From: Arenicola marina | Taxonomy: Eukaryota > Annelida > Polychaeta > Arenicolidae | Direction of reading: 5' to 3' | NCBI GenBank assembly: GCA_964019135.1 | Contig: OZ025248.1 | Span: 36,263,670 to 36,327,669, forward strand | Length of the DNA stretch: 64,000 bases | Shown: piece by piece, positions 6,020-59,700 of the stretch | How the letters are laid out: each line of letters begins with the position of its first letter | Numbering within the stretch: the first letter of the stretch is position 1 | The notes under the pieces: model-generated | Seen by the model: only the letters and a program-made list of their open reading frames with translations | Told to the model about the DNA's origin: nothing | Databases searched by the model: none | Position numbers and translations under genes: made by a program

Positions 6020-8826
6020 TATATCACACTATATGTAGTGCCCCCGGGGGTTTATACCACACTATATGTAGTGCCCCCGGGGGTTTATACCACACTATAT
6101 GTAGTGCCCCCGGGGGTTTATACCACACTATATGTAGGATCTCCGGGGGTTTATACCACACTATATGTAGTGCCCCCGGGGGTTTATACCACACTATATG
6201 TAGTGCCTCCGGGGGTTTATACCACACTATATGTGGTGCCCCCGGGGGTTTATACCACACTATATGTAGTGCCCCCGGAGGTTTATACCACACTATATGT
6301 AGTGTCTCTGGGGGTTTATACCACACTATATGTAGTGCCCCCGGGGGTTTATACCACACTATATGTAGTGTCTCCGGGGGTTTATACCACACTATATGTA
6401 GTGCCCCCGGGGGTTTATACCACACTATATGTAGTGTCTCCGGGGGTTTATACCACACTATATGTAGTGCCGCCGGGGGTTTATCCCACACTATATGTAG
6501 TGCTGCCGGGGGTTTATCCCACACTATATGTAGTGCCCCAGGGGTTTCTACCACACTATATCTAGTGCCCCCCGGGAGTTTATACCACACTATATGTAGT
6601 GTCTCCGGGGGTTTATACCACACTATATGTAGTGCCCCCGGGGGTTTATACCACACTATATGTAGTGCCCCCGGGGGTTTATACCACACTATATGTAGTG
6701 TCTCCGGGGGTTTATACCACACTATATGTAGTGCCCCCGGGGGTTTATACCACACTATATGTAGTGCCCCCGGGGGTTTATACCACACTATATGTAGTGT
6801 CTCTGGGGGTTTATACCACACTATATGTAGTGTCTCCGGGGGTTTATACCACACTATATGTAGTGCCCCCGGGGGTTTATACCACACTAGATGTAGTGCC
6901 CCCGGGGGTTTATACCACACTATATGTAGTGTCTCCGGGGGTTTATACCACACTATATGTAGTGCCCCCGGGGGTTTATACCACACTATATGTAGTGTCT
7001 CCGGGGGTTTATACCACCCTATATGTAGTGCCCCCGGGGGTTTATACCACACTAGATGTAGTGCCTCCGGGGGTTTATACCACACTATATGTAGTGCCCC
7101 CGGGGGTTTATACCACACTATATGTAGTGCCCCCGGGGGTTTATACCACACTATATGTAGTGCCCCCGTGGGTTTATACCACACTATATGTAGTGCCGCC
7201 GGGGGTTTATACCACACTATATGTAGTGCCCCCGGGGGTTTATACCACACTATATCTAGTGTCTCCGGGGGTTTATACCACACTATATGTAGTGCCCCCG
7301 GGGGTTTATACCACACTATATGTAGTGTCTCCGGGGGTTTATACCACACTATATGTAGTGCCCCCGGGGGTATATACCACACTAGATGTAGTGCCTCCGG
7401 GGGTTTATACCACACTATATGTAGTACCCCCGGGGGTTTATACCACACTATATGTAGTGCCCCCGGGGGTTTATACCACACTATATGTAGTGCCCCCGGG
7501 GGTTTATACCACACTATATGTAGTGCCCCCGGGGGTTTATACCACACTATATGTAGTGCCCCCGGGGGTTTATACCACACTATATGTAGTGCCCCCGGGG
7601 GTTTATACCACACTATATGTAGTGCCCCCGGGGGTTTATACCACACTATATGTAGTGTCTCCGGGGGTTTATACCACACTATATGTAGTGCCCCCGGGGG
7701 TTTATACCACACTAGATGTAGTGCCTCCGGGGGTTTATACCACACTATATGTAGTGCCCCCGGGGGTTTATACCACACTATATGTAGTGCCCCGGGGGTT
7801 TATACCACACTATATGTAGTGCCCCCGGGGGTTTATACCACACTATATGTAGTGCCCCCGGGGGTTTATACCACACTATATGTAGTGCCCCCGGGGGTTT
7901 ATACCACACTATATGTAGTGCCGCCGGGGGTTTATCCCACACTATATGTAGTGCCCCGGGGGTTTATACCACACTATATCTAGTGCCCCCCGGGAGTTTA
8001 TACCACACTATATGTAGTGCCCCCGGGGGTTTATACCACATTATATGTAGTGCCCCCGGGGGTTTATACCACACTATATGTAGTGCCCCCGGGGGTTTAT
8101 ACCACACTAGATGTAGTACCCCCGGGGGTTTATACCACACTATATGTAGTGCCCCCGGGGGTTTATACCACACTATATGTAGTGCCCCCGGGGGTTTATA
8201 CCACATTATATGTAGTGCCCCCGGGGGTTTATACCACACTATATGTAGTGCCCCCGGGGGTTTATACCACACTATATGTAGTGCCCCCGGGGGTTTGTAC
8301 CACACTACATGTAGTGCCCCCGGGGGTTTATACCACACTATATGTAGTGTCTCCGGGGGTTTATACCACACTATATGTAGTGCCTCCGGGGGTTTATACC
8401 ACACTATATGTAGTGCCTCGGGGGTTTATACCACACTATATGTAGTGTCCCCGGGGGTTTATACCACACTATATGTAGTGCCTCCGGGGGTTTATACCAC
8501 ACTATATGTAGTGCCCCCGGGGGTTTATACCACACTATATGTAGTGCCCCCGGGGGTTTATACCACAATATATGTAGTGCCCCCCGGGGGTTTATACCAC
8601 ACTAGATGTAGTGCCCCCCGGGGGTTTATACCACACTAGATGTAGTGCCTCCGGGGGTTTATACCACATTATATGTAGTGCCCCCGGGGGTTTATACCAC
8701 AATATATGTAGTGCCCCCCGGGGGTTTATACCACACTATATGTAGTGCCCCCGGGGGTTTATACCACACTATATGTAGTGCCCCCGGGGGTTTATACTAC
8801 ACTGTATGTAGTGCCCCCGGGGGTTT
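6020..8826. repeat. 33-bp satellite-like array, about 85 copies
   Basis: The unit is gtttataccacactatatg followed by tagtgcccccgggg, 33 bp. Because 33 is a multiple of three, every frame on both strands stays open, which gives long meaningless reading frames. Each unit carries a perfect 10-bp palindrome (cccccggggg) and a near-palindrome (actatatgtagt). Two main unit types differ at gtgcccccgg versus gtgtctccgg, with a rarer ctagatg variant. A rare variant (tctagtgccccccgggag) occurs at 6561 and again at 7979 with similar neighbours, so about 43 units were duplicated as a block. Confidence 0.98.
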
Positions 8827-13597: not shown

Positions 13598-16500
13598 ATG
13601 GCGACCATGGCGGTAACCTTGGTTACGATGTTCCGTAAGTAGTCCTCCAATGACATAATGATGCCTAAAATGTATCAAAGAAATTATCATGCGGCGACAT
13701 TTATTGTTATCAACAAATGGTACTTTAGGCAAAAGTTCCCTGGTTCCTTCAAGTAAATGACATACAAATAAAAAATATGCATAGGAGAACTTTGTTTTTG
13801 ATATATTGCTTTAAATATATTTAGGTGTGTAGAATTGAATGTTAGTGACCTTGACCGTTTGTCATATATTTGTATAGTGAATCGACAAGGTGAGTAGTGG
13901 TGGAGTTGACTGAACGTGACCCACTGATCCACTGGTACAGTGGGCTGATGGACGGTGGGGGCACTGATCTTCAACTGTCAAGATGGGTGGCGATATGAGG
14001 GTGAAGGCGTTGACCTTAAAAAGAGTTGGTGGGGATGGGAGCGGAGGGCATTGTGGGCAGAGTGGGCGGTGGCAAAATTTTGAAGAGAGACGAGCCGACA
14101 GAATATGAAAGGTGGTAGATACAACCTTGAATAGATTGGATGGTGATGGAGAGTTTAATATAATGGAACGTAAGCGGATTATTTGGGTAATAAAGTGATG
14201 ACCATTACTGAACTAACCGTTAAAGGTGTGTATTGTGTAAGGTGACCGACGCTGAATCTATTTTTAAAATATCGATTGCTTTATCGCGAAATCATTCTCT
14301 GTGTTCAAAATATCATGAACTGCTTTGGTTTCCTATTGAAGTAACGACGGCAGGTCCGCAGCTAGCAGGAGCGACCTCTGACGAGTGCGGAGGACTCATC
14401 TTTGCGGCCATCGATAGGACTGGAACCATCACGTCACCCAACCATCCGGGTCGCTATGGTAACCTAGCCCACTGTATATGGCTGCTAGAAGCTGACCCAG
14501 GACAAGTCATTCAGCTGACCCTGGAGGGAGTTGCAGCGGAAGGCACACACAGTGATGGCTGCATAGACTATCTTGAGGTCAGTGTTGTTGAAATTGATAT
14601 CGCGTATAAACATAATAGCGCTCCTGTGGCATTAGTACGCTCTCGATCTCACTCAGTGGGGGTCAATCAAGCCAAGAAATGCAGGCACACTAACGCTTAT
14701 TGAGTGATCACTCACTCTCACTGAGCAGTTACTCCCCTCAAAACTGGGGCCGGCTCGACAGCTCAGTGGGCTAGAGCGCTCGCATTGAGTGCTCTGGTCA
14801 CCTGAGAGCCTAACGGCACGTGGGTCGGTGGTTCGAGCCCTCATGTGGCCATGTCTGTGTGGTCGCAGAATAAAGATCCCATGTCTTTCTTCGTAAAGAG
14901 TAGGGGGTTACCCCCGGAGACATGGCTCCACTCACCCTTCCTTCTCCCGTTGACGCGATATGACCAAAAGCGGTTAAAGCGTCCTGAATAACCAACCAAC
15001 CAACCCCTCAAAACTTGGGCATTCATAGGTAATGAGTGGTCATTCACTTAATGAGTGGTCACGCACTTAATGATTGGTCACGCACTACATGGGAGATCAT
15101 TCACTTAATGGGAGGTCCTTCACTTAATGAATGGTCCCGTACTTAATGAGTGGTGAGTCACTCATATGTAGTTTCTAAAACCATCATACTTATTATTCGT
15201 CACTCAGACTTAATAAGTGATAACTCACACGTACATTACAATTGATCACTTACACTTACTAAGTGGTCACTCACGATTAATAAGTAGGCACTCACACTTA
15301 TAATTGTTCACTCACATTTAATAAGTAGGCACTCACACTTATAATTGTTCACTTACGATTAATAAGTGGGCACTCACACTTATAATTGTTCACTCACACT
15401 TAATAAGAGGTCATTCATGCTCAATAAGTTATCACCCACAGTATAAACAGAGATCGAGTGGTCTTCCACACTCAGCGAAGGAAGATAAGATGAGTGATTT
15501 ATAGAACAATCCTCACATTGAGATGTCGATCATGACCGACGATCGACCCGGCCCCAGTGGTCTGATTCTCATTGTACTATCAACTGATTTATTTACGGAA
15601 GGGCGGTTGACGTTTTAGACCCAGTCAGAATTAATTGGTTCGGGGAAGCCCTGGTGCAAAATGAAAGGAAGTTGAACAACGGAGACTCCCCTCGATTTCA
15701 GGCAAATCGCGAAATCAAATTAATTCACAGCATTCACTCACTCCCATATTGGGATTGACAGCTGCGTGCTGGAGGAAAGAGGCCTCCCCCAAACCGCCAA
15801 AGTCATTTCATTTTCAGTCCAGATTTTCCTTTGTGTGTTTACTGCGAGCTCAAACGAAAGTGACCTTCGCTACAGCACTGCGAATGATATCCTAGCTGCC
15901 ATAATAAGCCGTTAAAGGGACTGAGTGTGAGTGTGTGGTCACACGAAGCCGAATGATTGCAATATCATAAATACAATGAAGAATAATGGTGAAATATAAG
16001 ATAGATTCATAGATATGAAAGGTGCATTATCAGCGTCTTTGAGTGTGCGATCGATAAGTAAGACGCACTCGGCCATATACATCCAATTAACGACAACTAT
16101 GGAAGTTACTCTGACTAAGTAATCACTTCTAGATGCTTTAGTTCTATTGAAACCGCGATCCGAAATCGCCAAACGTGGAAATTGAAACAGTCAATGCGAG
16201 TTGTGTTTTTCGTGACAAGCGAGCGATTTCAAATAATTTTAGTGGAGGGACGGACCACTTTTTGTGCATGGTCTATAGCCCATGGGGCTCAGATCTGCGG
16301 ACAGAACCCCCGAAATATATAAACAACGCCCCCCTCTCAGGCACCGTATATAATCTTTTTATTATATGCGGTGCCTGGGACGGGGGGGTGGGGGGCGGGC
16401 GTTGTATACATACTTCGGGGGTTCTGTCAGCAGATCTGAGCGCCTGTGGTCTATAGTGGTGTAAGACAGGACCAATCTTGGGGCAATGGATGGAATTAAT

Positions 16501-21914: not shown

Positions 21915-24797
21915 ATGATGAAGGCTGCACCGATGGCTAACCGCTTGTTGCTGGGTAAGTTTGTATTACGACAGAAGAGTTGAAATTTTATATAAAGCTG
22001 CCCTGAACGGGTCGTCGTTATAGGCGGGTTGTCGTCATAGACGTGTTGTCGCCATGGCCAGGTTATCTCGACAGACAGGTTTTCGTTGTAGACCGCTTGT
22101 CGCTATAGACGGGTTGTCACAATAGATGGGTTGTCGTCATAAATGGGTTGTAGTTATGGACCGGTTAGCGCTATAGACGGTTATTGTCACGGTAACGGCT
22201 GGCTCTCGCTATAGACTGGTTGTCATAGACACGTTGTCGTAATAGAGGGTTGTCGTCATAAATGGGTTGCCGTCATGGATGTTACTATAGACGGGGTGTC
22301 ACTATAGACGGGTTGTCACTTTAGACGGGTTATCGCCATAAACGGATTGTCACATATTGTGCCAATGTTTAATTATATACAGGATCTGAATATACTTTTA
22401 TACAACTTAAATTATTAAGTTGCCTTATTTCTTCTTTTTTCAGTGACCTTCTGTATATGTATACCGGCTTTCCTTGTCAAGAAGGCACAGGCGCTAGGTA
22501 AGATAAGTGTAAACTTTATGATCTTATCTGATATGCAAATAGTTTTCATTGGCTATAAAGTTGCTGGAAATATGAATGCAATAAGAGTACTGATGTATCG
22601 TTAATTCATTACCACGTATGCCCAGTACTTGCTTACATTGCCGATTAAGCATAGCGACGTTTTCCACAGAGTGCTTTCGACAGAGACGGGTTGCCATGGT
22701 CATAGACACGTATCTCCATGGACACTCTGAGGAAATATATCATTCTTAGTCGAGAGTAGAGATTAACCTCGTAGACACGTGGCTCAACTCTGATGCCCTC
22801 GACTCTTGCCCTTGTCGGCATGATTCTATAAGGATATCGGATCTTTCCTTCTCAACCTGACCTTTCACACTCCAGTTACCATGGACGAGTCTTGCGGGGG
22901 GTTCAAAGAAGTCGCCAATCCCACGGAGACAGGAGTCCTCGCATCACCCGGACATCCCGGGAGCTATAACATCCTTGACCTTTGCATCTGGCTCATACAG
23001 GCCCCGGAAGATTACGCCGTGAGACTGTCAGTCGACGGCGTTGCCGGGGAAACCAACGACACCCATTGCGTAGATTATCTCGAGGTTTGTATAACCATGA
23101 CGATGGGTGATATATTAGAAGTTTGTGAAACATTTCGGTTGTCTGGAACTCGGTAGTGGATGGTAAACTATATACGTACTCGATGACAGAACGACAATAG
23201 GTTGCGAGTTCATACCCCACCAGTTTCGTTCTTCCATGGGTTCACGCTTGCAGTCTACTGTGCACATCGTTTAAGTTTACAAATTACCACGCAGGTCCGC
23301 AGTGGTTCGCCGAAGGAGGCACTGTTGTATATAGGATGTGACACCTCCAGTTCAGCTATCGTCACCTCCCAGGGTCGCTGGCTGTGGGCGCGTTTCCATA
23401 GCAATTATGAAAATACCAACAAAGGCTTTACAGCTAAATGGGATATCGTGAGTTCACCAGGTGTGTAGACGTCGGTAACATCTCTTAGAAAAGTATTACC
23501 CGTGATCAATCAGTAACTGTAAATAATATTGTAATCTCTGAACAAACACTTCACATTGTTTTACACATTTTAGACGGCTATAGTATCAGTAGATACTATC
23601 AGGCTTGAATCATACTCCAATGTAGATTGATGTTAAGTTATTCACCATTAGTTAACATCAGATAAAGGCACACAAAAATGTAATATCCATTTATTTACGA
23701 TACTTTTGTCATTCGTAGCATATATCTTGCAATATTCACCTGAGCGTTTTCTTTCCAGAAAATGCAAACTCTTCTACTGACGTATTTCAAGGTAAGTAAT
23801 AACGAAAAAGAAGGAACAAATAACTGTAAGTAAGACCAGTTAAACTAATATAAATAAGCCTAATCTCACACTCTCACAGAACAGTTAAAACATCACTTCC
23901 GTGTGGGCGACTAACATCATCGTGGTAAAAAACGCATATGTAGCTTCGCACAGATATATATGCTTGTCAATTGTCATGAATACACATCTAACCATTATCC
24001 CTGGCCTTGACTGACTATGCACCACCTCATGGGTTTGTTACAGAGTGTCAGAACCAGCGCTACACCTGTCCGAACAAGGAGTGCACGACTTGGGCCTATC
24101 GCTGTGACGGCCAGAACGACTGCGGGTGTCTCCAAACCGGATGTGATGAAATCAATTGTGCCGGCTTCGACATCGGTGTGTTGATGCTGCTTCCTGCTTC
24201 CGGCATGCATTTCCTCGGGACAAAATCGATTTATAATGTATAAGAAACTCGTCATTTTAAGTTGTCATGGGTATATATTATACATTGCCGTAGGCTACCC
24301 GTAAATGATTGAGCTTCAGACCAATTGTCCCCGTTCGATCCTCATTCCCGCAGCATCTGAAGCCGGGGAATGTTGCACATATCATATCCATATGGATATT
24401 ACATATACTAGATTTAAGCATATTGTTAAATAAATAAGAATTGTTATCCACGATATTGCACCCTTACCCAGGTACGCCGATGAAGCTGGGCATGGGTGTG
24501 GGTCTGGGGTCAGCCATTTTGATCCTGGTTTTCCTCGGCGTGGGGCTCCTGGATATCCTGCAGAAGCGTCTGGTTGAGCGACGATACCGCCAGCGTCTGG
24601 AGCGACAGCGGCGGCTGAAGAAGCAACGGAAGGCCAAGGCAATGGCGCAGTTGTTTGTACAGCGGCCCAGCTTCAGTCTGAGCAACGGCAGCGGCGGGGA
24701 CGATGGTGGCCGTCTGTCCATGGCGTCGGGGGCGCCGAGTGCGAGGACCAGCATCAGCATGAGTGTCAGGGGCAGCGTCAGCAACGAAGGTCGTTAA
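21915..24797 (+). CDS. CUB-LDLa single-pass membrane protein, gene copy 2
   Basis: Complete tandem paralog of the preceding gene, 319 residues. Exons: 21915-21954, 22444-22497, 22876-23084, 23295-23460, 23759-23791, 24044-24175, 24472-24797; all phases agree. Residues 1-31 form a signal peptide (MMKAAPMANRLLL then VTFCICIPAFL, ending AQA). The CUB domain, about 36-156, has four cysteines and CVDYLEV. A short linker (ENANSSTDVFQ) precedes the LDL-receptor class A module at 168-211, which has eight cysteines including the unusual DCGCLQTGCDE. The transmembrane helix is at about 220-240. The tail starts LQKRLVERR, is strongly basic and ends serine-rich with RPSFSLS. The start is the first ATG of a tandem ATGATG. 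Likely a surface receptor or adaptor; the ligand cannot be inferred. Confidence 0.9.
22004..22352. repeat. 17-bp degenerate array in intron 1 of CUB copy 2
   Basis: Variants of atagacgggttgtcgtc repeat about 20 times between the two signal-peptide exons. Divergence between units is high, so this is an older array than those at 6-9 kb or 52-55 kb. Confidence 0.85.
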
Positions 24798-24799
24798 TT

Positions 24800-25545
24800 G
24801 GGTGATGGGCGTGAGGAGTTAACGATGCAAGGAGGTGATGCCGTAATTAAGGAACTAATGATGTAAGGAGGTAATCATGTATGGATATAGTCACGTCAGG
24901 AGGCAATGATGCATGGAGGTAATAACCTAAGGAGGTACTCCTGAAGAGGAAATGACTGAAAAATAATGGTATTAAGATGTAGTGGCTTAATGATGTAAGA
25001 AGGTCATAACATGAATGGGCCCGATGTTAGGAAGCGATGGTGTATCGATGTAATGAGGTAAAGAGGTAATGGATAAGGGAGGCGTTAATGACGTGAGGAG
25101 GTAAAGTTGGTGGAGGTTATTGCGTAAGGCGTTAGTGATGTAAGGTCGTAATTAAGGCGTTAATGATGTGAGGTCGTAATTAAGGCGTTAATGATGTAAG
25201 GTCGTAATTAAGGCGTTAGTGATGTAAGGTCGTAATTAAGGCGTTAGTGATGTAAGGTCGTAATTAAGGCGTTAATGATGTAAGGTCGTAATTAAGGCGT
25301 TAGTGATGTAAGGTCGTAATTAAGGCGTTAGTGATGTAAGGTCGTAATTAAGGCGTTAGTGATGTAAGGTCGTAATTAAGGCGTTAATGATGTAAGGTCG
25401 TAGTTAAGGCGTTATTGATGTAAGGTCGTAATTAAGGCGTTAGTGATGTAAGGTCGTAATTAAGGCGTTAATGATGTAAGGTCGTAATTTAGGCGTTAAC
25501 GATGTAAGGTCGTAATTTAGGCGTTAACGATGTAAGGTCGTAAAG
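24800..25545. repeat. 28-bp array just 3' of CUB copy 2
   Basis: From 25124 the unit aaggcgttagtgatgtaagg plus tcgtaatt (28 bp) repeats about 15 times with few changes. From 24800 to 25120 there is a decayed leader of ggaggtaatgatgta-like words. It begins a few bases after the stop codon, so much of it is probably within the 3' untranslated region. Confidence 0.92.
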
Positions 25546-50700: not shown

Positions 50701-53700
50701 CCATGTACCCATATAGCATTGGGTCGGGACCCGCCCTGTACTAGCTCAGTGGATACACAGGCTGAGATGCAGATCCAACAGGTCGTGGTTACGACACCTG
50801 GGATCTGCATATTTTTTTTATTTAAAAAAACCTTTTCCATATAGCGGCCGTGTTCTGTCGGGTCTGGGGCTGGCCTTTCACCCCTCGTGTCTTGCTGTGT
50901 TGTAGTTGACCAGAAGGGTATTCAAGGGCATCCCGGAGGCGCTGCGGGGAGATGTGTGGTGTCGACTCCTGGACGTCCACAGACTGCGACAGGAACAGCG
51001 AGGGGTGTACGAGGTAAGTGGTGACTTCACGGAGTGCTTAGTGATCTCCCGCTCCGTAGATGCCGGGGCCGAATATTTCACATAACTCCATGCCAAAATC
51101 CTGCTCGAGGGCGAAATATTCAGCCCCGGCCGTTTCTTACGGCGCCAGGTCTCTAATGAAGCCATGACGAAGCCATTACAATACATAAGGGAACCTTTCC
51201 CGTGGACACCATCCTGATGAAACTGTGCGCGCCTGGCCGATCCCTTTTCTGTGCCCTGTGTGAGGAGGGAAACCGTCGGCTCCCGTGGCTTTGTCTTAAC
51301 CACCGGTAGTTCCGAAACCAAGCCAATCTGTTTTGTTGTGTCTATATGACACTGATGTACTGCTGATTATTATCTACCGACTTGCTTTAAATGTTTAATT
51401 CAATGACTATTGACTTTGCTTGTCTTTCCGTTCAGAAGGACATTATGATAAATACCTCAGCTGACGACTGATCACTTATCGGAAGATATTTTAACTTGAA
51501 CTGTGGTGGCAGGGAGCGAGATTCTCTGAGATGCGCGGGTATAACACGTGTCGACTTTGTTCTGTTTGCGCTCTGCAGGAAATGAAGGAGAGAGCTCGGC
51601 GCTTCTCGCCGGATGTACGTCAGATCGACTTGGACGTCAACAGGACGTACCGGGACCACATCATGTTCCGTAAACGTTACGACGTCAAGTGAGTATTACT
51701 GCTCCAGCCATAGCGACGCAGCAGCGTTGTCTGAATTCTAATGGTGTAATAGATGTATATATACCCACTTGCCCACTTGGATATGCACGTGGCGTAAAAG
51801 TGCCCTTTCCAATTTTTAAAATGTTTCAAACTGTATTAGCGGCAATAAATTTGCGTGTGTTGCTAGTTGGCTACCACACGCCCCCTTTCTTCTGCTATAC
51901 GGGTCCAGCTTAGTCTTCATGTGCACGAAACACTGGCTTAACATACCCACCTTTTCATTTTCCTTATGCTATTCATTTTGGTATAATGGTGGCATTTGCG
52001 TGGGCTTGCAGACAGCAGCACCTGTTCCACGTGCTGGCGGCCTACTCGATGTACAACACTGAGGTGGGGTACTGCCAGGGCATGAGTCAGATCGCGGCCC
52101 TCCTACTCATGTACATGGATGAGGAGGTAAGCCCTGTCTCAGAGCGGCTTAACCGCTTTCACCGGTAACACCGGCCCGTAAGGTCCTGTCTGAGAGCGGC
52201 CCAACCGCTATCACCGGTAACACCGGCCCGTAAAGCCCTGTCTGAGAGCGGCCCAACCGCTATGACCGGTAACACCGGCCCGTAAAGCCCTGTCTGAGAG
52301 CGGCCCAACCGCTATCACCGGTAACACCGGCCCGTAAAGCCCTGTCTGAGAGCGGCCCACCCGCTATGACCGGTAACACCGGCCCGTAAAGCCCTGTCTG
52401 AGAGCGGCCCAACCGCTATCACCTGTAACACCGGCCCGTAAAGCCCTGTCTGAGAGCGGCCCAACCGCTATCTCCGGTAGCACCGGCCCGTAAAGCCCTG
52501 TCTGAGAGCGGCTGAACCGCTATCACCGGTAACACTGGCCCGTAAAGCCCTGTCTCAGAGCGGCTTAACCGCTTTCACCGGTAACACCGGCCCGTAAAGC
52601 TCTGTCTGAGAGCGGCCCAACCGCTATCACCGGTAACACCGGCCCGTAAAGCCCTGTTTCAGAGCAGCCCAACCGCTATCATCGGTAACACCGGCCCGTA
52701 AAGTCCTGTCTCAGAGCGGCTGAACCGCTATCACCGGTAACACCGGCCCGTAAAGCCCTGTCTGAGAGCGGACAACCGCTTTCATCGGTAACACCGGCCC
52801 GTAAGGCCCTGTCTGAGAGCGGCTCAACCGCTATCACCGGTAACACCGGCCCGTAAAGCCCTGTCTGAGAGCGGCCCAACCGGTAACACCGGCCCGTAAA
52901 GCCCTGTCTGAGAGCGGCCCAACCGCTATCACCGGTAACACCGGCCCGTAAAGCCCTGTCTGAGAGCGGCCCAACCGCTATCACCTGTAACACCGGCCCG
53001 TAAAGCCCTGTCTGAGAGCGGCCCAACCGGTAACACCGGCCCGTAAAGCCCTGTCTGAGAGCGGCCCAACCGCTATCACCTGTAACACCGGCCCGTAAAG
53101 CCCTGTCTGAGAGCGGCCCAACCCGCTATCACCGATAACACCGGCCCAACCGCTATCACCGGTAGCACCGGCCCGTAAAGCCCTGTCTGAGAGCGGCTGA
53201 ACCGCTATCACCGGTAACACTGGCCCGTAAAGCCCTGTCTCAGAGCGGCTTAACCGCTTTCACCGGTAACACCGGCCCGTAAAGCCCTGTCTCAGAGCGG
53301 CCCAACCGCTATCACCGGTAACACCGGCCCGTAAAGCCCTGTCTCAGAGCAGCCCAACCGCTATCACCGGTAACACCGGCCCGTAAAGCCCTGTCTCAGA
53401 GCGGCTGAACCGCTATCACCGGTAACACCGGCCCGTAAAGCCCTGTCTGAGAGCGGACAACCGCTTTCACCGGTAACACCGGCCCGTAAGGCCCTGTCTG
53501 AGAGCGGCTCAACCGCTATCACCGGTAACACCGGCCCGTAAAGCCCTGTCTGAGAGCGGCCCAACCGGTAACACCGGCCCGTAAAGCCCTGTCTGAGAGC
53601 GGCCCAACCGCTATCACCGGTAACACCGGCCCGTAAAGCCCTGTCTGAGAGCGGCCCAACCGCTATCACCGGTAACACCGGCCCGTAAAGCCCTGTCTGA

Positions 53701-56700
53701 GAGCGGCCCAACCCGCTATCACCGATAACACCGGCCTGTAAAGCGCTGTCTGAGAGCGGCCCAACCGCTATCACCGGTAGCACCGGCCCGTAAAGCCCTG
53801 TCTGAGAGCGGCTGAACCGCTATCACCGGTAACACTGGCCCGTAAAGCCCTGTCTCAGAGCGGCTTAACCGCTTTCACCGGTAACACCGGCCCGTAAAGC
53901 CCTGTCTGAGAGCGGCCCAACCGCTATCACCGGTAACACCGGCACATAAAGCCCTGTCTCAGAGCAGCCCAACCGCTATCACCGGTAACACCGGCCCGTA
54001 AAGCCCTGTCTGAGAGCGGCCCAACCGCTATCACCGGTAACACCGGCCCGTAAAGCCCTGTCTCAGAGCGGTCCAACCGCTATCTCCGGTAACACCGGCC
54101 CGTAAAGCCCGGTCTCAGAGCGGCTTAACCGCTTTCACCGGTAACACCGGCCCGTAAAGCCCTGTCTGAGAGCGGCCCAACCGCTATCACCGGTAACACC
54201 GGCCCGTAAAGCCCTGTCTGAGAGCGGCTCAACCGCTATCACCGGTAACACCGGCCCGTAAAGCCCTGTCTGAGAGCGGCCCAACCGGTAACACCGGCCC
54301 GTAAAGCCCTGTCTGAGAGCGGCCCAACCGCTATCACCGGTAACACCGGCCCGTAAAGCCCTGTCTGAGAGCGGCCCAACCGCTATCACCTGTAACACCG
54401 GCCCGTAAAGCCCTGTCTGAGAGCGGCCCAACCCGCTATCACCGATAACACCGGCCTGTAAAGCGCTGTCTGAGAGCGGCCCAACCACTATCACCGGTAG
54501 CACCGGCCCGTAAAGCCCTGTCTCAGAGCGGCTGAACCGCTATCACCGGTAACACCGGCCCGTAAAGCCCTGTCTGAGAGCGGCCCAACCGGTAACACCG
54601 GCCCGTAAAGCCCTGTCTGAGAGCGGCCCAACCGCTATCACCGGTAACACCGGCCCGTAAAGCCCTGTCTGAGAGCGGCCCAACCGCTATCACCTGTAAC
54701 ACCGGCCCGTAAAGCCCTGTCTGAGAGCGGCCCAACCCGCTATCACCGATAACACCGGCCTGTAAAGCGCTGTCTGAGAGCGGCCCAACCACTATCACCG
54801 GTAGCACCGGCCCGTAAAGCCCTGTCTGAGAGCGGCTGAACCGCTATCACCGGTAACACTGGCCCGTAAAGCCCTGTCTCAGAGCGGCTTAACCGCTTTC
54901 ACCGGTAACACCGGCCCGTAAAGCCCTGTCTGAGAGCGGCCCAACCGCTATCACCGGTAACACCGGCCCGTAAAGCCCTGTCTCAGAGCAGCCCAACCGC
55001 TATGACCGGTAACACCGGCCCGTAAAGCCCGGTCTGAGAGCGGCCAACCGCTATCACCGGTAACACCGGCCCGTAAAGCTCTGTCTGAGAGCGGCCCAAC
55101 CGCTATCACCGGTAACACCGGCCCGTAAAGCCCTGTCTCAGAGCGGCCAACCGCTATCACCGGTAACACCGGCCCGTAAAGCCCTGCCTCAGAGCGGCCC
55201 AACCGCTATGACCGGTAACACCGGCCCGTAAAGCCCTGTCTGAGAGCGGCCCAACCGCTATCACCGGTAACACCGGCCCGTAAAGCCCTGTCTGAGAGCG
55301 GCCCAACCGCTATCACCGGTAACACCGGCCCGTAAAGCCCTGTCTGAGAGCGGCCCAACCGCTATCACCTGTAACACCCGCCCGTAAAGCCCTGTCTGAG
55401 AGCGGCCCAACCGCTATCACCGGTAACACCGGCCCGTAAAGCCCTGTCTGAGAGCGGCCCAACCGCTATCACCGGTAACACCGGCCCGTAAAGCCCTGTC
55501 TGAGAGCTGTCCAACCGCTATCTCCGGTAACACCCGTCCGTAACTTCCAAACGACTGCGTAGGCATATTTCGCTAAAGTCCCATTAAAGGGCGCAATATT
55601 CGGGCCCGGCCTTTGGGAACTTCCGGACCCATGGTCTGTCTGTTCGTCTCCAGTTACGACGTGAGGCGCGTCACGTCAATGGCACAGCATATCTACATTG
55701 AATCGTCGCATATAATTCAGTATCAATTTTACATATATCAAATTCATATATTTATATTCAAGTATCTTCAAGTATCAACTTCATATATTTATGGTATTTC
55801 AAGTCCACATATTAATAGCTATTTATTTTGCGTCTAACTGAGTATCACCTGGCAATGCTGAGTCAATGGCTTCCGAACACGTCCTGTGTCGAAACGTTTT
55901 CGTTTTCTCGAGATTTAGAAGAGATATTTGTCGCTATGACTGCGGAAAGCTCGTTCAATGCCCATGTTTTGAGTGAGGGTTTGCCTTGCGCCTGTTTCAG
56001 CATGCCTTCTGGGCCCTGTCTGCGTTGTTGTCCAACGAAACGCACGGCATGCACGGTAGGTCGCATATTAACAGAGGAGTTGTCAAATATGGGTCATGTT
56101 TAGAAACAAAAAAACAGGATTGCCTCCTGGATACTTTTACCTTGTATTCAAACTTTCTACGAAGACATTGTCAAGTAAACTACTCCAAACCGTTGTAAAC
56201 GGTTGGTCCCGTTGTAAATCGTTGTGAACCGTGGGTCCCGTTGTAACTAGGAATCGTGGAGTGTCCCTCATGCTGAACAATGTCCTGAGCCTTCTGTTAC
56301 TTCCTTCCCAAAGGTTTATTCATTCCCGGCTTCCCTAAACTATTGCGGTATCAGGAACACCATGACAGAATACTGAAGAAACTAATTCCCAAGATGAGGA
56401 AGCATTTGGTGAGTGCGCTCTTGACACTCTGGCCGAGCATGGGAAGTCTTTAATGGAGACATATAGGTGCATGCTTTTTATGATTTAACAATACTCACCT
56501 CCTCGCTGTGTTTGCTTAGATTTCTTAGCAATAATTCCAATATCCGTATATAAATTTATGGGTATGATCTCGTTGACAAATTGTTTATCTATGCACATAT
56601 ATAAGAAAATCCCTATACTGAGTTTTTAATTGCTTCACTCTCAATTTATTTCTGTAATCCGCTGATATTTTGCAGGACAAGATGGAAATTTATTCCAGTC

Positions 56701-59700
56701 TGTACACCATAAAGTGGTTCATGCAGTGCTTCCTGGATAGAGTAAGTTGAGACATAGGTGTTATGCCAAGACCGAGTATCATATGTTGCCATGATCTAAC
56801 GTTATTTCACAATCGTTGGTAAGCAAGGAATCTCTCAATGTGTGCAATTGTATCAATTTAAGGTTAAAAAAGTATGTTGCAGAAGAAAGTGGCATATAAT
56901 GCATTTTTTTTCTCCCAGGCTTCCCTGGAATATTTTTTCCACAAGCATGTCTTGTAGGCCATACACAACGTCCTGATCTATCCTTCCCTGTCCTCCCGTC
57001 CTGACTGCCTGTCTTGCCCTCGCGTGCTGACCTCCCATCCTGACCTCCTGTCTTGCCCTCGCGTCCTGACCTCCCATCCTGACCTCGCGTCCTGACCTTC
57101 CATCCTGACCTCCTGTCCTGACCTCGCGTCCTGACCTCGCGTCCTGACCTCCCATCCTGACCTTCCATCTTGACCTCCCATCCTGACCTCCTGTCTTGCC
57201 CTCGCGTCCGGACCTCCCATCCTGACCTCGTGTCTTGCCCTCCCGTCCTTACCTCCCATCCTGACCTCCTGTCCTGACCTCCCGTCCTGACCTCCCGTCC
57301 TGACCTCCCGTCCTGACCTCATGTCCTGACCGCCTGTCCTGCCCTCGCCTCCTGACCTCCCGTCCTGACCTCCCATCCTGACCTCCTGTCTTGCCCTCGC
57401 GTCTTGACGTCCCATCCTGACCTCGCGTCCTGACCTTCCATCCTGACCTCCTGTCCTGACCTCCCGTCCTGACCTCCCGTCCTGACCTCCCGTCCTGACC
57501 TCCTGTCCGCGTTGTCCTTTGCAGGTTCCTTTCCGGCTGACGTTGCGCCTATGGGACATCTACATCTTAAGGGGAGAGCGAATCCTGCTTGGCATGGCGT
57601 ACAACATCATGCGCATCCACAAGCGTGAGTACTACAACCCGGGGCCGTATTCATAATCAACACTCCATGTCTGCGTGGTCACAGGGTAAAGATCCCATGT
57701 CCTTCTTCGCAAAGAGTAGGGGGGTACCCCCGGGGACATGGCTCTACTCTCCCATTGACGCGATATGACCAAAAGTGGTCTATAATCGCCACTTAGGCTA
57801 TTCCAATGGACTAAGTGCAAGATTTGTCGAACGATTATCGGGTTCAAAATACATAAGTAGTCATCCAAGAAGTGGATTTTTTAAATTAGGAAAGTGCTAG
57901 AATTTCATCGAAGATGTTTTTACTTGATAATGAGAACCTCCAAAATGAGCCAGTGAGGCTAAGACTAAAATGCACTTTTCGTGCGTAAGGTACGTGGGGA
58001 CTAAGAATACGGCCCCAGGTCGATTGTCATCTCGCCACTGCCTCCCAGCTTCCTTGTCCTATGTCTCGGACGAAGTTAATACGTAGGATTTTGGATTACG
58101 CTATGACCCTGCCATCGAACTTCACAGATCCCGAGTGACACAAGACCCCTCATAAACAAACTGAGTTATTTTGTATCCCTTTATAATTCTTACAGGGCAA
58201 ATACTTAAGAAGGAATTATTAAACAAATAGCGATGTGAGAAAGTAAGGAACTGCTTTAAATACGGATGTTGTATAATATAACAACCGAAATGATCAGTGC
58301 ATCAATGGCTTTGACTGCGGACTGTGGGGTGAGCCTGTGATTTGTATATGTTTTGACTGCGGACTGTGGGGTAAGCTTGTGATTGGCCTGTGTTTTGATT
58401 GCGGACTGTGGGGTCAGCTTGTGATTGACCTGTGTTTGAATGCAGACTGTGGGGTCAGCCTGTGAGTTGCCTGTGTTTTGACTGCGAACTCAGTCTGTGA
58501 TTTGCTGTGTTTTGACTGCGAACTCAGCCTGTGATTTGCCTGTGTTTTGACTGCGAACTCAGCCTGTGACTGGCCTGTGTTTTGACTGCGGACTCAACCT
58601 GTGATTGGCCTGTGTTTTAAATTTACAGGGAAGATGCTGAAGATGCAGATGGAGGAACTGGTGACCTTCCTCCAGAGCGACCTTCAGAAGGACTTTGGCT
58701 ACAGCGACGACCAGGTGATCGACGCGCTTCAGAACTCGATGGAGGAGCTGCGCAAGGCCAAGCTGGACCTGCCGCCCAAGGGTACGGTGGAGGAGCGGCC
58801 CACCAAGCCCTTCGGCCTCTTCGTGCCGCCCAGCGTCGAGCAGATGCTCGGCCGCCGCACGATCGACACGACCGACCTGCTGCAGGGGGGCAAGCGGGCC
58901 AGCGGCCGCGAGGTGCGGCCCTTCATCCCGGCCGACGGCGGCCCGGCCAACGTGCCGCTGCACATCCAGCAGCAGCAGCAGCAGCAGCGCCTCTCGCGGC
59001 TATCGCGCTCGAGCCGCGGCGGCAGCCCGGACCAGTACGAGACGGGCACGAACGACGGGTACGGCTCGCGGGCCGCCTCCGTGGCCGACTACCGCAGCTC
59101 GCGCACCTCCTTCGTCATGGACACGTCGGACATCGGCAGCACGGGGACGACCATCAGCCGCCCCACGCACATGTACTCCAGCTACAACACGCTCAACGAC
59201 GCCGACTTCATGCCGCGCGACGACGACGGCAGCGGCCTGGGCTACGGCAGCTTGGGAGGGGACGGCATGGCCACCGGGATGGGGTTCGGGAGCGCTCTAG
59301 GGATCGGGATGGGGGTCGGGGGCGCGCTGGGGGGCGCGGAGGAGGAGGAGAGCCGGCGGGAGTCGCAGACGTCCGAGTACGACAACCTGAACGGCGGCGA
59401 CTCCCCTTACGAGTCGACCTTGGAGCGGACGCTGGAGGCCATGGACTTGGACCGCAACGCCACGTTCACGCGCGGGATGAGCCTGAAGGATTACTACAAC
59501 AACGGCTTCGGCGACGGGGAGCCGGCCACGCCGCGACCCGGGGAGGCCGGCTTCAGCGTGGGCGGGGGCTTTGGCGTGGGCGCGGGGGGTGGGGGCGAAG
59601 GCGGCCGGCAGCCCGTGGTCGTGCGCGCCGCGCAGGACTCTTCCCGGAACCACGGTCACTGGCACCGCCATTACGAGTACCAGGAGACGCGGGAATTCAC

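Follow-up and report, generated by a model that had tools for sequence, protein, structure and literature searches.

A probable locus-specific minisatellite at a splice donor in Arenicola marina, and donor-spanning arrays elsewhere in its genome

Why would a tandem array that fills most of an intron begin where the intron itself begins, and does it matter for splicing that a donor-like motif is repeated along it dozens of times? These questions are raised by a 64,000-nucleotide stretch of the annelid Arenicola marina (assembly GCA_964019135.1, contig OZ025248.1, positions 36,263,670 to 36,327,669 of the forward strand; hereafter the window). The array lies at 52127..55543 of the window, in what its predicted protein indicates is a USP6NL/RN-tre-type TBC gene, encoding a GTPase-activating domain. 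Viewed in isolation, the intron amounts to a minisatellite of the ordinary sort, if a neatly edged one. Its setting is a genome in which arrays of comparable kind lie across many of the exon-intron junctions sampled.

The array (plus strand; Tandem Repeats Finder, TRF, and unit cutting) holds 66 units of 34 types and makes up most of one intron, about 3.4 kb. When it is cut at the GTAA phase, 52 of the 66 units are 52 bp long, and the remainder measure 51 bp (5/66), 43 bp (5/66), 53 bp (3/66) and 80 bp (1/66). With many tandem copies of a unit in the range of about 10-100 bp, it classes as a minisatellite. The repeat far exceeds what chance would give, scoring 3953 in TRF at a period of 52 and 5217 at a period of 156, and the higher score of the 156-bp period reveals higher-order structure. 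The TBC exon directly 5' of the array (52012..52126, plus strand; placed by spliced frame and Pfam, and recovered as locus L018 in the genome search with PF00566) ends in GATGAGGAG. The first repeat unit, 51 bp long (52127..52177, plus strand, unit comparison), opens at intron base 1: GATGAGGAG|GTAAGCCC. TRF places the array start at 52129, since the GTAAG of the donor is GTAAAG in later units. Thus, the sequence-only reading, which had the array begin exactly at the donor, holds within 2 bases; the span and the count of about 66 copies of 52 bp that it gave were confirmed. With a one-base gap allowed, unit homology begins at the G of the donor. The first unit is the internal type seen at 52542, 53227, 53842 and 54866, less one A, and it is this missing A that converts GTAAAG to GTAAG. 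Exon sequence is absent from the unit, which ends in CCC, the exon ending in GAG. GTAA bounds the array on both sides, and unit homology stops at the far copy (55540..55543, plus strand, unit comparison).

The unit appears to be private to this intron. A 601-base query (52100-52700) was compared with the 867-Mb genome (762 contigs), and all 10 matches listed fell within this array; counts from this search are lower bounds, very common words being skipped. We rejected an introner or other dispersed repeat because the unit occupies a single locus among the matches listed. It is likely, in our judgement, that the feature is a locus-specific intronic minisatellite, for which we propose the following birth and tolerance. 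The GTAA at both array ends suggests that the ~52 bases at the start of the intron were duplicated. The founding step would have copied these bases between a pair of short direct matches, each GTAA and one being that of the donor, and later growth would have proceeded by repeated local duplication and unequal exchange. The array would then start at the donor because the founding unit began there, and it would have been tolerated because the only good donor is the first copy, adjoining the exon. Growth by duplication at the donor had also been proposed in the sequence-only reading, and it is plausible given the single A that separates the first unit from the internal type, the GTAA on both sides and the single locus among the listed matches.

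The sequence-only reading had further claimed that the intron presents dozens of decoy donors in a row. Under this explanation, the repeated GTAA sites would bind U1, delay the splicing of the downstream 55-nt exon or make it variable, and so regulate the GTPase-activating domain. The 66 GTAA-phased units, nearly all of which retain GT, speak for it, as do the three copies that read CCC|GTAAGG. We scored these sites with a matrix derived from 108 real donors of this genome, which had first been selected at a score of at least 5 with a generic matrix, a step that raised the floor of the real set. The authentic donor, GAG|GTAAGC (intron part 52127..52132, plus strand), scores 10.8, above 80 of the 108 real donors, whose median is 9.4. 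GTAA contexts inside the array include 58 copies of CCC|GTAAAG, which score -1.0 (0/108 real donors lower), and 50 of CCG|GTAACA, which score 2.0 (1/108 lower). Even the best internal sites, the three CCC|GTAAGG, reach only 4.0 (3/108 lower, 105/108 higher). Predicted U1 pairing is -9.6 kcal/mol for the authentic donor, -1.9 for CCC|GTAAAG, -5.2 for CCG|GTAACA and -5.1 for CCC|GTAAGG. Furthermore, AG precedes 0 of the internal GTAA copies. Low matrix scores and weak pairing thus mark the internal sites as poor competitors by sequence, and competing decoys by the dozen were rejected for the window array on these two predictions. The array probably does little to splicing, because only its first copy is predicted to be a good splice signal. 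Full-strength donors are kept by array copies at other loci of this genome, which is a point for the decoy explanation; we nevertheless hold it to be very improbable here, since the 58 main copies fall below every real donor and pair weakly with U1. Since strong repeated donors do occur in other arrays, the decoy idea is a better match for the genome at large than for this intron.

The unit might instead be kept for the structure that it forms in RNA or DNA, as in an intronic RNA scaffold. Its consensus can be folded into two hairpins, each of 5 perfect base pairs, with a z score of -1.83 and 8 of 200 shuffles as good, and in an alignment of 21 of the 34 unit types 95.7% of pair cells are paired. 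Among those same types, however, changes on both sides were found in 0 of 10 pairs, and the region 51500-57600 gave no Rfam match up to an E value of 1. On these two grounds the RNA element was rejected; there is no sign of stem maintenance, and we give a maintained structure next to no credence.

Junction-spanning arrays were counted in a sample of 140 exon loci (L010-L149) from TBC, myosin, dynein, HECT and ABC genes, picked by match score and not by repeats. Exon ends were set by hidden Markov model matches and splice scores rather than by transcripts. Three loci (L010, L011 and L019) were set aside by judgement as apparently intronless. Among the remaining 137, 28 had no donor scoring at least 5 and 20 had no acceptor scoring at least 0, leaving 109 donors and 117 acceptors. 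Note that the loci are not fully independent, as they come from five families and often represent several exons per gene. A donor was called spanned if an array started no more than 100 bases inside the exon and entered the intron, and acceptors were treated as the mirror image; the window's own exon is among the 109 donors and was counted as not spanned. By this definition, 25/109 donors were spanned compared with 6/117 acceptors (Fisher test, P = 1.5 × 10−4). Among loci with short flanks, the counts were 19/60 and 3/69 (P = 4 × 10−5). An array 5' edge no more than 6 bases from the donor was found at 4 of the 109 donors, the window's included, so the coincidence of edge and donor in the window is not exceptional for this genome.

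The copies in the 25 spanning arrays largely preserve the donor. Of the 209 copies aligned, 194 keep GT (L125 accounts for 12 of the 15 that have lost it) and 164 equal or exceed the authentic donor in score; these figures lean towards intact donors, because a copy had to show 60% likeness to an anchor that included the donor. The exon tail and donor are repeated almost verbatim in L036, L114, L122 and L136. In 15 of the 25 arrays, the shortest TRF period cannot be divided by three, and use of a later copy would thus often shift the frame.

Individual loci illustrate the range of these arrays. At L036, an array of exon tail plus donor (1667-2815, 28 TRF copies) follows straight after the authentic donor, and the arrays of L114, L122, L136 and L144, the last three read in gene orientation, likewise repeat exon tail and donor. 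The closest analogue of the window array is at L125 (last exon base 554), where a 30-bp array runs from one base before the donor, repeating GGTGAGGC, and has the better internal donors. Acceptors can be repeated too: L015 (1-1568, 42 TRF copies) and L022 (266-1546) carry arrays of the acceptor and first exon bases upstream of a conserved exon. A late acceptor copy is presumably used at both loci to keep the protein.

We give even chances to the following reading of the genome. About one-fifth of conserved-exon donors would be followed by near-identical, mostly full-strength donors, made of exon tail and the opening bases of the intron, and duplicated acceptors would be rare; the first donor would then almost always be chosen, and the USP6NL array would be a limiting case, its unit starting right at the donor. 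The explanation that we hold to be likely makes the window array one end of a pattern in the sampled exons: tandem arrays are common in the introns, and many overlap an exon end with its donor. Arrays that repeat a donor would, on this explanation, be acceptable if splicing uses the copy that gives the shortest exon, which is the first donor. They would be born densely and roughly at random, and would survive at donors since the first copy there gives the shortest exon. The position of the junction within the unit ranges from 0.06 to 0.97 and is indistinguishable from uniform (Kolmogorov-Smirnov test, P = 0.11; 24 of the 25 arrays, L128 left out), which is what random placement predicts. In loci with long flanks, arrays occupy 32% of the DNA that follows the 49 donors and 38% of the DNA that precedes the 48 acceptors.

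The alternative is that duplication is directed to splice sites, for example by R-loops or by breaks linked to transcription close to where the exon ends, and seeds arrays at donors, the window array being one product. The pooled contrast between 25/109 donors and 6/117 acceptors is compatible with this, and array 5' edges are densest just before the donor, at 4.6 per kb 30-60 bases upstream compared with 0.3-0.8 per kb at 60-300 bases into the intron. However, flanks of 350 bases reduce the detection of arrays deeper into the intron. Strong targeting of the donor was rejected: the roughly ninefold edge density shrinks to about twofold against a matched point and is not significant in long-flank loci, where the donor is straddled in 6/49 cases and interior points in 30/441 tests (P = 0.16). 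Together with a junction position indistinguishable from uniform, this makes directed duplication unlikely as the source of the arrays, though it deserves some weight.

Several observations nonetheless count against random birth followed by survival at donors. It is the short-flank loci that carry the contrast between donors and acceptors; long-flank loci alone give 6/49 compared with 3/48 (P = 0.49). Donors are straddled in 23/106 cases, about twice the 10/106 for a matched position 150 bp inside the intron (P = 0.02), so array placement may not be fully random. Acceptors are straddled in 4/112 cases compared with 10/112 at the matched intron point (P = 0.17). This depletion is not significant and does not establish that duplicated acceptors are selected against; the pooled contrast suggests, without establishing, that acceptors are disfavoured. 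The same result leaves random birth slightly weaker and directed duplication slightly stronger. Acceptor arrays such as that of L015 would need a late copy, so first-come choice cannot be the sole rule; use of a late acceptor copy there would fit exon definition, which yields the shortest exon, and not a simple first-come rule. For the window array itself, GTAA is only 4 bases, weak evidence of birth by microhomology.

The gene around the array was examined through its exons. Splicing 52126 to 56001 and adding the neighbouring exons yields a continuous 147-residue TBC stretch in an unbroken frame, which matches Pfam RabGAP-TBC at 6.8e-43 and has as its best PDB match the USP6 N-terminal-like protein, at 1.1e-72. 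All exons are on the plus strand. Upstream of the array, a coding exon of the USP6NL/RN-tre-like TBC protein lies at 51579..51688 (continuous spliced frame, Pfam and PDB match), and the array intron is followed by the 55-nt coding exon at 56001..56055, the next at 56314..56408 and a further one at 56676..56741, these three by spliced frame. The unbroken frame and the Pfam match bear out the sequence-only reading, which had placed exons at 56001 and 56314 and recognized the TBC domain. Elsewhere in the window, CUB-domain matches occur in frames at 14224-14703 and 22824-23156, upstream of the TBC gene. Two other arrays are present. One, at 6020-8826, has 85 copies of a 33-bp unit, and several of its frames are open on each strand, the longest open reading frame listed being 654 amino acids; as the unit length is divisible by three, these open frames may have arisen incidentally and not reflect a gene. 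The other, at 25125-25543, has 15 copies of a 28-bp unit that contains GTAAGG.

Minisatellites have been linked to splice sites and introns in other animals. In the human gene IFI6 (6-16), a minisatellite reported in 1995 is said to provide multiple, real splice donors. The window array resembles it in that a donor-like motif recurs in a tandem unit placed at the boundary of exon and intron. It differs in that its internal copies rank lower than nearly every real donor sampled, the IFI6 repeats reportedly acting as real ones.

Closer to the pattern in the sampled exons are the amphioxus 'mirages', minisatellite-like arrays at exon-intron boundaries described, in the passages available from the two reports, for Adh3, the globins BflGb6 and BflGb9, PGBD5 and troponin C (PMC3087553, PMC3902484). 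Adh data and reverse-transcription PCR of globins are said there to suggest normal splicing. These passages cover single genes, and suggest wider occurrence in amphioxus as possible. As in the mirages so described, 25 of the 109 sampled donors of A. marina lie in junction-spanning units, with GT in most copies. The window array unit, however, does not span the boundary and so lacks the defining feature, and its copies are poor donors (58 below all 108 real donors) even though GT is kept. A further difference from the cases in those passages is that arrays here are frequent in an exon sample not chosen for repeats, in an annelid genome. Earthworm metallothionein introns hold minisatellites with monomers of 25-216 bp and reflective blocks (PMC12783039), likewise annelid introns filled by minisatellite; units at or across splice sites are not described in the passages available from that report. 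The Caenorhabditis elegans minisatellite CeRep25B is over-represented near alternatively spliced regions (PMC4039745), and so shares a proposed link to splicing; it is a named repeat, whereas the window unit is at one locus only among the matches listed. We found no junction-spanning arrays in annelids in the open-access literature, among the matches listed, which is weak evidence of absence.

The mitochondrial contig is in keeping with the annelid origin of this assembly. A 4.3-kb part of it, read in the invertebrate code, carries ND3-tRNA Ser-ND2-COX1-tRNA Asn-COX2-tRNA Asp-ATP8-tRNA Tyr-tRNA Gly-COX3, the ATP8 match being below its cut-off. According to the passages available from PMC2639372, annelids have nad3 between nad1 and nad2, and the cox1-to-cox3 run of Sipunculus is the same but for one extra tRNA. 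The predicted gene order thus fits annelids.

The frequency of junction-spanning arrays is a more valuable lead than the window array itself. Our sample suggests that donor-duplicating arrays are routine in this genome, and routine duplication of donors would turn a curiosity of a few amphioxus genes into a testable system. If the reading of the genome set out above is true, A. marina would provide a natural, genome-scale test of exon definition and of first-come donor choice. Furthermore, its arrays would be standing raw material for new introns and exon extensions.

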